A DNA stretch of 64,000 nt, from positions 1 through 64,000 of the forward strand of contig JAQVCX010000005.1 of the NCBI GenBank assembly GCA_028689545.1, given 5' to 3'. Source of the stretch: Parabacteroides sp. (GTDB lineage: Bacteria; Bacteroidota; Bacteroidia; Bacteroidales; Tannerellaceae). Positions 8,127 to 52,775 of the stretch are shown here, piece after piece. The number at the start of each line of letters is the position of its first letter. Position 1 is the stretch's first letter. Position numbers and translations under genes: made by a program. Under the pieces are notes generated by a model. The model was not told the origin of the DNA. It saw only the letters and a program-made list of their open reading frames with translations, and searched no databases.

Positions 8127-9818
8127 ATGAACAAAAAGTTTTTATTGCCATTCTTCGTATTGGCAGCCATTTTAACTCTTTCTTCTTGTTCAAACAAGTT
8201 GAAACCGTTGGCAGAACAGTACATTAAAGCAGAACCGCAGCCGCTAGAGGCTATCGGAGGCAAAGTTCCTGTAACGATCAACGCGACTTTCCCCGCTAAA
8301 TGGTTCAACAAGAAAGCTGTTGTAACTGTAACTCCGGTATTGCGTTACCAGGGTGGCGAAGCTTGGGGTACCTCTTACACTTACCAAGGTGAGAAAGTAA
8401 AAGGTAACAACCAAGTAATCCCTCAAAAAGAAGGCGCTAACGTAACTATGAAGTCTTCTTTCACTTACAAACCTGAGATGAAGAAATCAGAATTGTATTT
8501 GACTTTCGACGCGAAGATCAAAAACAAGACGGTTAAATTGCCGGATGTAAAGATCGGTGAAGGCGTTATCGCTACTTCCGAATTGGCAGACGCAGCTACG
8601 GCTACAGCAGCTATCGCAGCTGATAAATTCCAACGCATCATCAAAGAGGCTCATGACGCTAATATCATGTTCTTGATCCAACAAGCTAACCTTCGCGCTC
8701 AAGAATTGAATTCTGACGCTATCAAGGAATGGAAAGACCTTGTTAAGAACGCAGAAGAGGCACCGAACCAGAATGTAGCTATCGAGATCAGCGCTTACGC
8801 TTCTCCTGATGGTGGTTTCAAGTTGAACAACACGTTGGCTGAAAATCGTGAAGGAAACACTAGCAAATATTTGAACAAGGAATTGAAGAAGATGAAGGTT
8901 GACGCTCCGGTTGACGCTCGTTACACCGCTCAAGACTGGGAAGGCTTCAAGGAATTAGTTTCCGCTTCTAACTTGCAAGATAAAGACTTAGTATTGCGTG
9001 TTATCTCTATGTACCAAGATCCTGAGGCAAGAGAGAAAGAAATCAAGAACATCTCCGCTGTTTACTCTGACTTGGCTGAGACAATCCTTCCGCAATTACG
9101 TCGTTCTCGTTTGACTGCTAACATCGAGATCATCGGTAAGTCTGACGACGAGATCAGCGCTTTGGCTAAGAGCAATCCTTCTGAGTTGAATATCGAGGAA
9201 ATCCTTTACGCCGCTACATTGACTAACAACGACGGTGAGAAGATGGCTATCTATACAAAAGCTTCAGAATTGTATCCTAACTGCTACCGCACTTGGAACA
9301 ACATCGGTATGATGGCATTCAAGGCTGGCGATTTGGCTAAGGCTGAGCAAATGTTCAACAAGTCTAACTCTGTTAAGAACAACGCTTCCGCTAACATGAA
9401 CTTAGGTTTGATCGCATTAACGAAGGGTGACCAAGCTAAGGCTCAACAATTGTTCGGTAACGCCGCTGGCGTAAACGAATTGAGCGAGGCTCTTGGCGTT
9501 CTTTACTTAGAGCAAGGCGAATATGCTAAGGCTGTTAACTCTTTCGGTGCTGTTAAGACAAACAACGCTGCTTTGGCTCAGATCTTGGTTAAGGACTACA
9601 GCAAGGCTTCTCAAACTTTGAATGGCGTCGCTAATCCTAACGCTGTTACCTCTTATTTGAAGGCTGTTGTTGCCGCTCGCACGAACGACGCTAACGGTGT
9701 TATCAGCAACTTGAAGGCTTCTATCGCCGCTGATAAGAACATGGCTAAGGAAGCTGCTATCGACTTAGAGTTCGCTAAATACGCGACTAACGCTGACTTC
9801 GCCGCATTGGTGAAATAA
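8127..9818 (+). CDS. TPR-repeat lipoprotein with OmpA-like domain, probably highly expressed
   Basis: Lipobox TLSSCS, EISAYASPDGG OmpA-like motif, C-terminal TPRs (YRTWNNIGMMAFKAGDLAKAEQMF); strongly biased codons. Confidence 0.75.
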   Translation: MNKKFLLPFFVLAAILTLSSCSNKLKPLAEQYIKAEPQPLEAIGGKVPVTINATFPAKWFNKKAVVTVTPVLRYQGGEAWGTSYTYQGEKVKGNNQVIPQKEGANVTMKSSFTYKPEMKKSELYLTFDAKIKNKTVKLPDVKIGEGVIATSELADAATATAAIAADKFQRIIKEAHDANIMFLIQQANLRAQELNSDAIKEWKDLVKNAEEAPNQNVAIEISAYASPDGGFKLNNTLAENREGNTSKYLNKELKKMKVDAPVDARYTAQDWEGFKELVSASNLQDKDLVLRVISMYQDPEAREKEIKNISAVYSDLAETILPQLRRSRLTANIEIIGKSDDEISALAKSNPSELNIEEILYAATLTNNDGEKMAIYTKASELYPNCYRTWNNIGMMAFKAGDLAKAEQMFNKSNSVKNNASANMNLGLIALTKGDQAKAQQLFGNAAGVNELSEALGVLYLEQGEYAKAVNSFGAVKTNNAALAQILVKDYSKASQTLNGVANPNAVTSYLKAVVAARTNDANGVISNLKASIAADKNMAKEAAIDLEFAKYATNADFAALVK

Positions 9819-9844: not shown

Positions 9845-9880
9845 AAGACCTCATCCCTAAAAGGATGGGGTCTTTTTTTT
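9845..9880 (+). terminator. rho-independent terminator
   Basis: AAGACCtCATCC CTAAAA GGATGgGGTCTTTTTTTT. Confidence 0.9.
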
Positions 9881-10025
9881 ATATACCCAATGCCACACAA
9901 ATCACAAAAGGGCTCACCCGATAAATCATGGGGATAACCTATCTACACTCCGTCCTACTGGATAAAAGTCTTATTGGAAGTAGCTTGTCTGTCCGTATTA
10001 TTTATTGTCTGCCTATATATGTACA

Positions 10026-10113
10026 GATCGTTTCACAGAGGTGAAGAGATCGTATCACGGAGGTGAAACGATCGTATCACCTAGGTGAAAAGATCTCTTC
10101 ACCTCCGTGAAAC
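10026..10113. repeat. four contiguous 22-bp units, each containing a TTCAC-N4-GTGAA palindrome
   Basis: GATCGTTTCACAGAGGTGAAGA / GATCGTATCACGGAGGTGAAAC / GATCGTATCACCTAGGTGAAAA / GATCTCTTCACCTCCGTGAAAC. Confidence 0.95.
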
Positions 10114-10352
10114 GATTAGATAGTACGGTGCTTGGCCATACTATCCACCGTTCTTATCCCTAAAGAGGCTATGCTTAATTGTTATAATATCACGAGTTCA
10201 TCCCAATTTCCCCATGGCCTATCGAGTAAGCCCACAAAAGCCTAAGGAAGAAGAAAATAAACCTTGAGCATCAACCGCTCTTTCAAAATTAATTCGTAGA
10301 TTTGCAAAATCTAATAACACTGTTGCAAATATTAATCAAATAGGGCAAAATC

Positions 10353-12587
10353 ATGAAATCATTATTCTACTATTTATGCGCGCTTCTATTCATGATGACC
10401 TCATGTATGGAAAGAGATCTTTATCAAGATCCGACGATTGACCCTGGTACAGACCCGACAGTCCCAACGCAAGAGGACTTCACCGGTCAAACTAAAGAAG
10501 ATGCCACTCTTACCGTTACAGCCATTGACGGCAACGGAGACTATGTGGCCGGTACGAAATTCTATTTCTACGCTGAGAATCCTTACGATGAGGATGGAAA
10601 CTGGACAGAGCCATCTTTGTTATTCTACGGAGTGACTGGAGCGAATGGAGTATTAGAGGCTTCGTTCACCTTGCCAAACGGATTAAAGACCGTGTATGTA
10701 CAAGGCTATGGCTTCTTGCAAACGTATGACGTGGAGACAGGCGATAAGAGCTTGCTCTTCCAATCCCCTAAGTTTGAATACCTGCCAACGACAAAGTCGA
10801 TGCTTAGGAGCGATGAGGAAGATTACCCGTCTATCCCCGTACACCCTCAGCCCACGGCTGGTGAGTTTCAGAATGTATATACATTTTATGATGGAGCACG
10901 AGGCATCTATGAAGGAGCACCGGCTTATACCTATAAAGGCCATGTAGGAATCGAAGAAGACACATTGTCTACTCCAAAAGAGGGTGTTTCTTTATCGACG
11001 ACAGGCGCGCCCCTAATAGGTTATGGGAATGGTCTTGTTACTCAAAATGAGAGGGGAAGCGAGCTCAAAAGCAAAGCGGAATTACGATTCCCCGAAAAAG
11101 GCCTGGGATTTAAAACAGAGAACAAGCATTTACTAGAAGCTAGCCATAATACAGATTTAGTAGTTACCGACGCGAACGGTGCCGAGGTATGGGCCACTTA
11201 TCTAGGTGATGGGGGCTTCTGTGTAAATAATTCAGGCATAAGCTACAACATGCTGTGTTATTACCATTATACCGAAGGAGAGACACTGGATGCTAAAAAG
11301 ATCCGGAAAACGGTTTTATTCCCGAATACAGACCCGAACTCCACGCCATGTGGAACACAAGTACAACTGCTCTACTGGAATGGCAGTAAATATGTAAAGA
11401 CATTCCCTAAAGGGACGAAGATCGGTTGGTGCTATATCCAAAATGGATTTGGAAAACGAGGAAACGCAGCGGATAGCCCCAATCGTTTCAGCGAGCCCCG
11501 AATCTCAGGCATAAAATACTATCGCTTCTCCACCGCCTCATTGAACGGAGCTAGCCGAAAGGCCAATGGCCTCTCCTCATCCCCCACATATAATCAAGCG
11601 GTCGCTTTCTGGAACGAGGAAACGAAATGTACATTTGTCGGAATAGAGAACCGTTGGGTCTTGACCGAGAAAGACGGGAAACAAGATAATGATTTCAATG
11701 ACGTATTGATAGCGGTTACATCCAACCCGGTTATCAAGCCTGGCAGTGATATCAGCGGAGAATTACCGAGTGACGAAGAAGACAACAAGGAAATCAAGAG
11801 CGAACAATTAGGCACATTAGCTTTCGAGGATATGCATCCTCAAAAGGGAGACTACGACCATAATGACGTGGTTATAGACTACACCTATAGGATCGTGAAA
11901 GATCAAAGCGCACAAGTAACAGCTGTAGAGGCGGAATTTATCCCGAGAGCAGCTGGAGGAATGCGTAAGTCCGGTTTCGGTATTGAATTTCCGCAAATCG
12001 ATCTGTCTAACGCTAAAGGCGACCTTGAATCGGGTTGTACTACGCCGGTCGTAATCGTGTACGATGATGTACATGGCTGTTTTGGAGAAGGTTTATCCGG
12101 CCTTATCAATACGTATACGAAATTAGCTCACTATGAGTCGCCTGCCGCGACGACAGTCCGAGTAGAATTAAACTCACCTTTATCAGTAGATGAGTCAAAT
12201 AAATTCACCGTATTGAAATTCAATCCGTTTATATTTGTAGATCAGAGAGGAAACGAGACACACCTTATTGATTACAAGCCGACCAGCAAGAACACGAAAC
12301 AATTCGGCGTACAAGACGACAAGTCTGATGGCGTAAAGACATTCTATCGTTCAAACGATGGATTCGCTTGGGTTTTAGATATAACGAGAATCTCCACCGA
12401 CGAATCTTCTTGGACATATCCTGCCGAAGGAACCAGTGTCGTAGACGCATATCCGGGATACAGCGATTGGGCCAAAGACAACCATTTCAATACAAATATC
12501 TGGTTTACCCAAGATAAAGGCAACGCGGAATTATTATACATCCCTGCCGTAAAGGAGCCAGAGGATAATAAAGAAGAAGGCAAATAA
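10353..12587 (+). CDS. LruC domain-containing lipoprotein
   Basis: Lipobox MMTSCMER; NDFNDVLIAV and LAFEDMHPQKGDYDHNDVVIDY repeats typical of LruC/DUF4842. Confidence 0.85.
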   Translation: MKSLFYYLCALLFMMTSCMERDLYQDPTIDPGTDPTVPTQEDFTGQTKEDATLTVTAIDGNGDYVAGTKFYFYAENPYDEDGNWTEPSLLFYGVTGANGVLEASFTLPNGLKTVYVQGYGFLQTYDVETGDKSLLFQSPKFEYLPTTKSMLRSDEEDYPSIPVHPQPTAGEFQNVYTFYDGARGIYEGAPAYTYKGHVGIEEDTLSTPKEGVSLSTTGAPLIGYGNGLVTQNERGSELKSKAELRFPEKGLGFKTENKHLLEASHNTDLVVTDANGAEVWATYLGDGGFCVNNSGISYNMLCYYHYTEGETLDAKKIRKTVLFPNTDPNSTPCGTQVQLLYWNGSKYVKTFPKGTKIGWCYIQNGFGKRGNAADSPNRFSEPRISGIKYYRFSTASLNGASRKANGLSSSPTYNQAVAFWNEETKCTFVGIENRWVLTEKDGKQDNDFNDVLIAVTSNPVIKPGSDISGELPSDEEDNKEIKSEQLGTLAFEDMHPQKGDYDHNDVVIDYTYRIVKDQSAQVTAVEAEFIPRAAGGMRKSGFGIEFPQIDLSNAKGDLESGCTTPVVIVYDDVHGCFGEGLSGLINTYTKLAHYESPAATTVRVELNSPLSVDESNKFTVLKFNPFIFVDQRGNETHLIDYKPTSKNTKQFGVQDDKSDGVKTFYRSNDGFAWVLDITRISTDESSWTYPAEGTSVVDAYPGYSDWAKDNHFNTNIWFTQDKGNAELLYIPAVKEPEDNKEEGK

Positions 12588-45979: not shown

Positions 45980-46175
45980 CGCTTCGAGGGGTCGAAAAGC
46001 CTATTCCGGTTTAAAAAAACGGATTTCGAGGAGTCGAGAACCATTCCCCCGTTTCAGGAAATGAATCTCGAGGCCTCGAAATGTATTTTCTTGCCTCGGA
46101 AAAGCATTTCAAGCCCTCGAAAAGCATTTCCCGGTTTCAGGAAAGGGGTTTCGAGGGGTCGAAACGGGTTTCGCA
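45980..46175. repeat. about nine contiguous 19-22 bp degenerate palindromic units (TTTC...GAAA)
   Basis: e.g. GCTTCGAGGGGTCGAAAAGC, ATTTCAAGCCCTCGAAAAGC, ATTTCCCGGTTTCAGGAAAGG, GGTTTCGAGGGGTCGAAACGG. Confidence 0.9.
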
Positions 46176-52681: not shown

Positions 52682-52693
52682 AAGCATACTATT

Positions 52694-52775
52694 ACACATA
52701 ATCAAACTTTACAATATCGCAAATATACACATAATCGAACTTTATAATACTATAAATATACACATAATCGAGAAT
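52694..52775. repeat. 33-bp-period direct repeats (52694, 52727, 52760) upstream of the ATPase gene
   Basis: ACACATAATCAAACTTTACAATATCGCAAATAT / ACACATAATCGAACTTTATAATACTATAAATAT / ACACATAATCGAG. Confidence 0.9.

Follow-up and report, generated by a model that had tools for sequence, protein, structure and literature searches.

A four-unit 22-bp repeat array in Parabacteroides and a candidate HU-HIG partner protein

A tandem array of directional units and its copies

The stretch of DNA analysed here, called the window, comprises 64,000 nucleotides (positions 1 to 64,000 of contig JAQVCX010000005.1, assembly GCA_028689545.1) of a Parabacteroides metagenome-assembled genome, whose assembly holds 3.76 Mb in 200 contigs. 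Between a lipoprotein gene and a gene encoding a DUF4114/DUF4842 protein, the positions 10026-10113 contain four 22-bp units, arranged head-to-tail without spacers, with the centres AGAG, GGAG, CTAG and CTCC. An earlier note on this DNA had described the block in these terms and had placed it outside any plausible open reading frame (ORF) and past the upstream terminator (~9850-9878), and we confirmed both statements. We propose below that the block is probably one of many binding arrays for an HU-HIG protein of the same genome. The units, as read from the sequence, are the following:

10026-10047, + strand: unit 1, GATCGTTTCAC-AGAG-GTGAAGA
10048-10069, + strand: unit 2, GATCGTATCAC-GGAG-GTGAAAC
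10070-10091, + strand: unit 3, GATCGTATCAC-CTAG-GTGAAAA
10092-10113, + strand: unit 4, GATCTCTTCAC-CTCC-GTGAAAC, closed by GATT up to ~10118 (also placed by the inverted repeat)

Every unit starts with GATC, the array ends with CGATT at ~10118, and a repeats finder reports a 45-nt inverted repeat (87%) across the whole block. The units had been regarded as palindromes. This is correct for the inner TTCAC/GTGAA arms, but not for the shoulders, which are unequal (GTATCAC on the left versus GTGAAAC or GTGAAAA on the right). The units are therefore directional repeats with a palindromic core, TTCAC-N4-GTGAA. A two-unit pattern matched the own genome 70 times per strand and a three-unit pattern 46 times, whereas the reversed control patterns had no match, which excludes a chance origin.

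Searches of the own and related genomes revealed arrays at many other places. About 26 places in the own genome match a 131-bp query, nearly all with exactly four units. Most of these copies have a common leader and tail beyond the array, some have other flanks, and two further loci (L055, L056) carry a single unit. The same design (TCAC-N4-GTGA, 22-bp period, four units) is found in other Parabacteroides with species-specific shoulders: the half-site is GTTTCAC in the window's species, GGATCAC in G002, GGCTCAC in G026 and GTTCCAC in G008. Seven Parabacteroides genomes are rich in arrays (G000, G004, G005, G008, G002, G026 and G035). A broader pattern of purines and pyrimidines matched 21 of the 39 genomes of the genus, while its control matched a single genome, once per strand. 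The design and its spacing, again with shoulders that differ between species, also occur in G296 and G203, two genomes that belong to another family of Bacteroidales. Among the nine genomes scored, four units were found in 22 of the 24 arrays of G000, 11 of 13 in G035, 14 of 16 in G296, and in all scored arrays of G004, G005, G008, G002 and G026. Unlike this norm, the arrays of G203 mostly have three units; at L282 and L300-L303 the three units are of the TTCACCGYGGTGAA type, and the leader is common to these loci.

With mechanical ORF calls, 31/91 arrays lie between convergent genes, an enrichment over the background gaps (22/198). The nearest 3' end of a gene is at a median of 75 bp, and overlap with an ORF of at least 90 aa was seen for a single scored array. 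This placement is atypical for the operators of a regulon.

Orthologous loci were defined by flank matches among G000, G004 and G005, which provided 15 array comparisons, not all of them independent. Changes affected 9 of 448 sites in the core (2%), 69 of 410 in the junction shoulders, 342 of 1647 in the flanks (21%), and 94 of 224 in the centres (42%). Since the core changed so much less than the flanks and centres, the block is no minisatellite, and selection acts on its core. Among the changed centres between G004 and G005, three of 12 are exact reverse complements (AAGG/CCTT, CTCT/AGAG, CTAT/ATAG), compared with 3.5% of random pairs. Such pairs suggest an inversion of the centres, of the kind that hairpin loops can undergo when DNA replicates, which would account for fast centres alongside kept arms.

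Other repeats with the same period were observed. G004 (L396-L400) and G005 (L404-L407) have a second dispersed class, TGCCAY-N4-RTGGCA, often with more than four units, and two loci of G002 (L408, L409) carry a third class, TTTCATGCCGGTGGAAC. Among viral contigs there was one hit (L283:977-1032), where three TTCACA/TGTGAA boxes, spaced by 22 bp, precede a replication-type gene; these CRP-like boxes are probably unrelated to the arrays.

The HU-HIG gene and the array at its promoter

We clustered the ORFs neighbouring all arrays into families to find a cognate gene. One family adjoins an array in all seven array-rich Parabacteroides genomes, a protein of about 200 aa assigned to HU-HIG (PF18291, E=5e-38; TIGR01201, HU_rel). 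It is a clear member of this family, with an HU domain followed by a C-terminal region resembling a helix-turn-helix (HTH). The matches of this region in PDB are weak and non-significant, and include chains of the HTH or winged-helix type. In all seven genomes the array lies between the -7 box and the start codon of the orthologous gene. The distance from the TAnnTTTG box, the Bacteroides -7 promoter box (PMC7366714), to the first centre is exactly 25 bp in these seven arrays, and in only one of 107 other arrays. In the own genome the gene is on contig C123, with the promoter array at L053/L304. The window copy lacks the -7 box and is thus a dispersed copy, not the promoter copy.

The one exception among the 107 is in G296, from the other family, where an ISAs1-like element (PF13808, PF01609) follows the boxed array. 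The contig also holds the HU-HIG gene of this genome, at a distance of ~51 kb and preceded by a miniature inverted-repeat transposable element (MITE) with the same ends as the ISAs1-like element. Both break points carry the 9-bp ACCGATGTT. Given this shared sequence and the matching ends, the promoter, the array and the gene were probably once contiguous and were split by the insertion sequence (IS), which would extend the association of the array with the HU-HIG promoter to a second family. The ISAs1-like IS and the 158-bp MITEs of G296 (L285, L288, L289, L290, L292, L294, L295) share the end CAGGGCTGACGCATTA, and at about half of the array copies they lie at a constant 35-38 bp from the array, with intervening bases that are apparently non-homologous. 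These elements may target array-bound DNA.

HU-HIG genes are present in 35 of the 39 genomes of the genus. To compare their upstream regions we used the repeat lag in place of a four-unit palindrome score, which was often too weak to tell HU-HIG promoters from shuffles. Among 49 regions upstream of HU-HIG genes, the strongest lag was 22 in 43 and 23 in three, whereas lag 22 was found in 22 of 373 control upstream regions. When one gene was kept per cluster (<50% identity), lag 22 was found upstream in 19 of 22 clusters, the rest having 21 or 23. In the same 22 clusters, it was found in none of the coding parts and in one downstream region. The arrays of the paralogs have largely unrelated sequences, but in 24 regions their first centre lies 25 or 26 bp from the -7 box. 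In other families, most full-length genes encoding HU-HIG with a winged helix-turn-helix (wHTH) have 22-bp arrays upstream. The HU-HIG genes without winged helix at L359 and L361 of G203 are preceded by palindromes with a 23-bp period (ACATCCGGATGT; ACACCCGGGTGT).

Two genomes have two classes of arrays at HU-HIG genes. G008 combines two dispersed classes with two close HU-HIG genes: the TTCCAC type is found upstream of the C5 gene (two units) and the AATTCAC type upstream of the C25 gene. In G035 a CTAG-centred class is found upstream of the C8 gene, and a GCCAC/GGTCAC class upstream of the C5 gene. Because the classes pair with different paralogs, these sequence comparisons point to each protein reading its own class, and are hard to explain otherwise.

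Interpretation of the window array and alternatives

The array in the window lies at the centre of a lineage-specific insert, delimited as follows together with its neighbours:

9910-10233, strand not assigned: insert of ~324 bp, with leader and tail shared with many copies of the own genome
9910-9934, + strand: left imperfect inverted end, GGGCTCACCCGATAAATCATGGGGA, matching the right end at 20/25 positions
10209-10233, - strand: right imperfect inverted end
8127-9818, + strand: upstream neighbour, a tetratricopeptide repeat (TPR) lipoprotein gene, which served to mark the locus
10353-12587, + strand: downstream neighbour, encoding the DUF4114/DUF4842 protein (the LruC gene of the earlier note)

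In the relatives L057 and L183, the terminator and the downstream promoter region are the same, but the insert (~300 bp) is lacking, i.e., they show the empty site. As neither relative has the array here, the flanking genes are probably bystanders. The window contains two other tandem repeats, at 45983-46164 and 52693-52771 (42-bp and 33-bp units).

We consider it likely, with a probability of about 0.72, that the window array belongs to a set of dispersed arrays to which the HU-HIG/winged-helix protein of its own genome binds. One protein dimer would bind each unit on the symmetric TCAC-N4-GTGA core, and since the four units are two helical turns apart, four dimers would be placed on one face of the DNA, where they might bind cooperatively. 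At the array just downstream of its promoter, the protein would control its own synthesis. The dispersed copies would most likely be sites of chromosome architecture (nucleoid sites) rather than operators of adjacent genes, because they lack the promoter, lie near the ends of genes and are kept by selection. The window copy would have arrived with the ~324-bp repeat unit that spread in the lineage. The earlier note had suggested selection on a DNA-binding site or a folded RNA instead of simple duplication. The part on DNA sites is borne out by the slow core, the fixed number of four units, the dispersed copies and the cognate gene; none of the observations that it named as contrary (a lack of other arrays, unstable copy number, unconserved arms) was made.

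Several observations weigh against this interpretation. HU proteins are usually weakly specific; we credit the specificity here to the putative winged-helix part, yet some HU-HIG genes without winged helix also have 22-bp repeats upstream. The dispersed three-unit arrays of G203 do not match the best HU-HIG promoter array of that genome, and the examined copies of the TGCCAY-N4-RTGGCA class in G004 and G005 had no adjacent HU-HIG gene. The long leaders and tails common to copies of the own genome indicate that their spread may be partly selfish.

The last point can be taken further, by regarding the array as the core of a non-autonomous, MITE- or BrickBuilt-like transposable repeat that matches the HU-HIG promoter because of an old insertion there. 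The ~26 copies interspersed in the own genome, with leader and tail in common, the empty site in two relatives and the imperfect inverted ends of the window copy are all expected from such an element. Yet, the inverted ends are not consistent across the other copies of the own genome (the cross-copy control being inflated by mixed orientations), and the orthologous cores are 10 times more conserved than their flanks. Furthermore, the arrays of diverged HU-HIG paralogs are unrelated in sequence but agree in the 22-bp design and in the distance from the promoter, which the insertion of one element cannot yield. We thus regard a purely selfish element as unlikely. The array has also much in common with repetitive extragenic palindromes (REP) and bacterial interspersed mosaic elements (BIME) spread by REP-associated tyrosine transposases (RAYT), i.e., it is intergenic and palindromic, with species-specific arms and enrichment between convergent genes. 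This origin was rejected, and is highly improbable, because a search with PF01797 gave no Y1 transposase (Y1_Tnp) above threshold in the seven array-bearing Parabacteroides genomes, including one with a single contig of 4,811,379 bp; the strict 22-bp period and the four units per array do not fit it either.

The array could alternatively act as folded RNA, with four hairpins forming an element of a 3' or 5' untranslated region or a small RNA. The arms of the core can pair, and the copy at the HU-HIG promoter, just behind the -7 box, is expected to be transcribed. In contrast, only one of the 107 dispersed copies has the promoter box, and an Rfam search gave no match near a gathering score. Complementarity was below that of shuffled sequences for the shoulders within units (0.47 versus 0.53, z -4.3) and at junctions (0.43 versus 0.52, z -5.8), largely a consequence of the direction of the units, and was above it for the outermost shoulders (0.79 versus 0.73, z 3.3). 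Outside the core, this test neither supports nor disproves pairing as RNA. The RNA half of the earlier suggestion thus finds no backing in arm covariation or in known families, and we deem it very unlikely. Partition sites of the ParB or Noc type were suggested by the seven-base half-site of the window's species, GTTTCAC, which is identical to the half-site of parS. We rejected this reading since the match applies to some species only: other species have GGATCAC, GGCTCAC or GTTCCAC, whereas parS is conserved, and the halves are here separated by 4 bp. Such sites are the least credible of these alternatives.

A wider, still tentative, idea goes beyond the window array. Each HU-HIG paralog of Bacteroidales might have its own orthogonal chromosomal address: a four-fold 22-bp array, private to it, which it reads at its promoter and which recurs, in many species, at tens of further sites in the genome. 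The paralogs would then be parallel nucleoid-organising systems in which protein and site coevolve, a possibility that we hold to be somewhat less likely than not to apply so generally.

Relation to known systems

In the papers searched, we encountered neither a DNA target nor a promoter array described for the HU-HIG family. Its members abound in gut Bacteroidales, and the family would, if our interpretation is true, gain a testable function. It would include a protein of the HU family that recognises a specific sequence, both in a private array at the promoter of its gene and at tens of places in the genome that are kept by selection. The pairs of arrays and proteins would provide ready-made operators and regulators, and an HU-type system would join the known ways in which bacteria mark their chromosome.

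Among these, matS/MatP and the Noc sites consist of many selected chromosomal sites for one DNA-binding protein. The arrays resemble them in having many selected sites around the chromosome for one, here predicted, binding protein, and differ in being four-fold, apparently private to each HU-HIG paralog, and present at the promoter of its gene. With REP/BIME and RAYT (e.g., PMC3733652) they share dispersed intergenic palindromes, species-specific sequences and a linked cognate gene, but this gene encodes an HU-type DNA-binding protein instead of a Y1 transposase, and the arrays keep a strict 22-bp period with four units. The BrickBuilt MITE of Porphyromonas gingivalis is a spacer-free tandem repeat of 23 nt with leader and tail, present in 19 intergenic copies in ATCC 33277, with 1 to 22.8 repeats, and the word palindrome is absent from the text that describes it (PMC4596501). 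The arrays are similarly spacer-free and framed by leader and tail, but have a 22-bp period, a nearly fixed number of four units with palindromic core, and a cognate gene.
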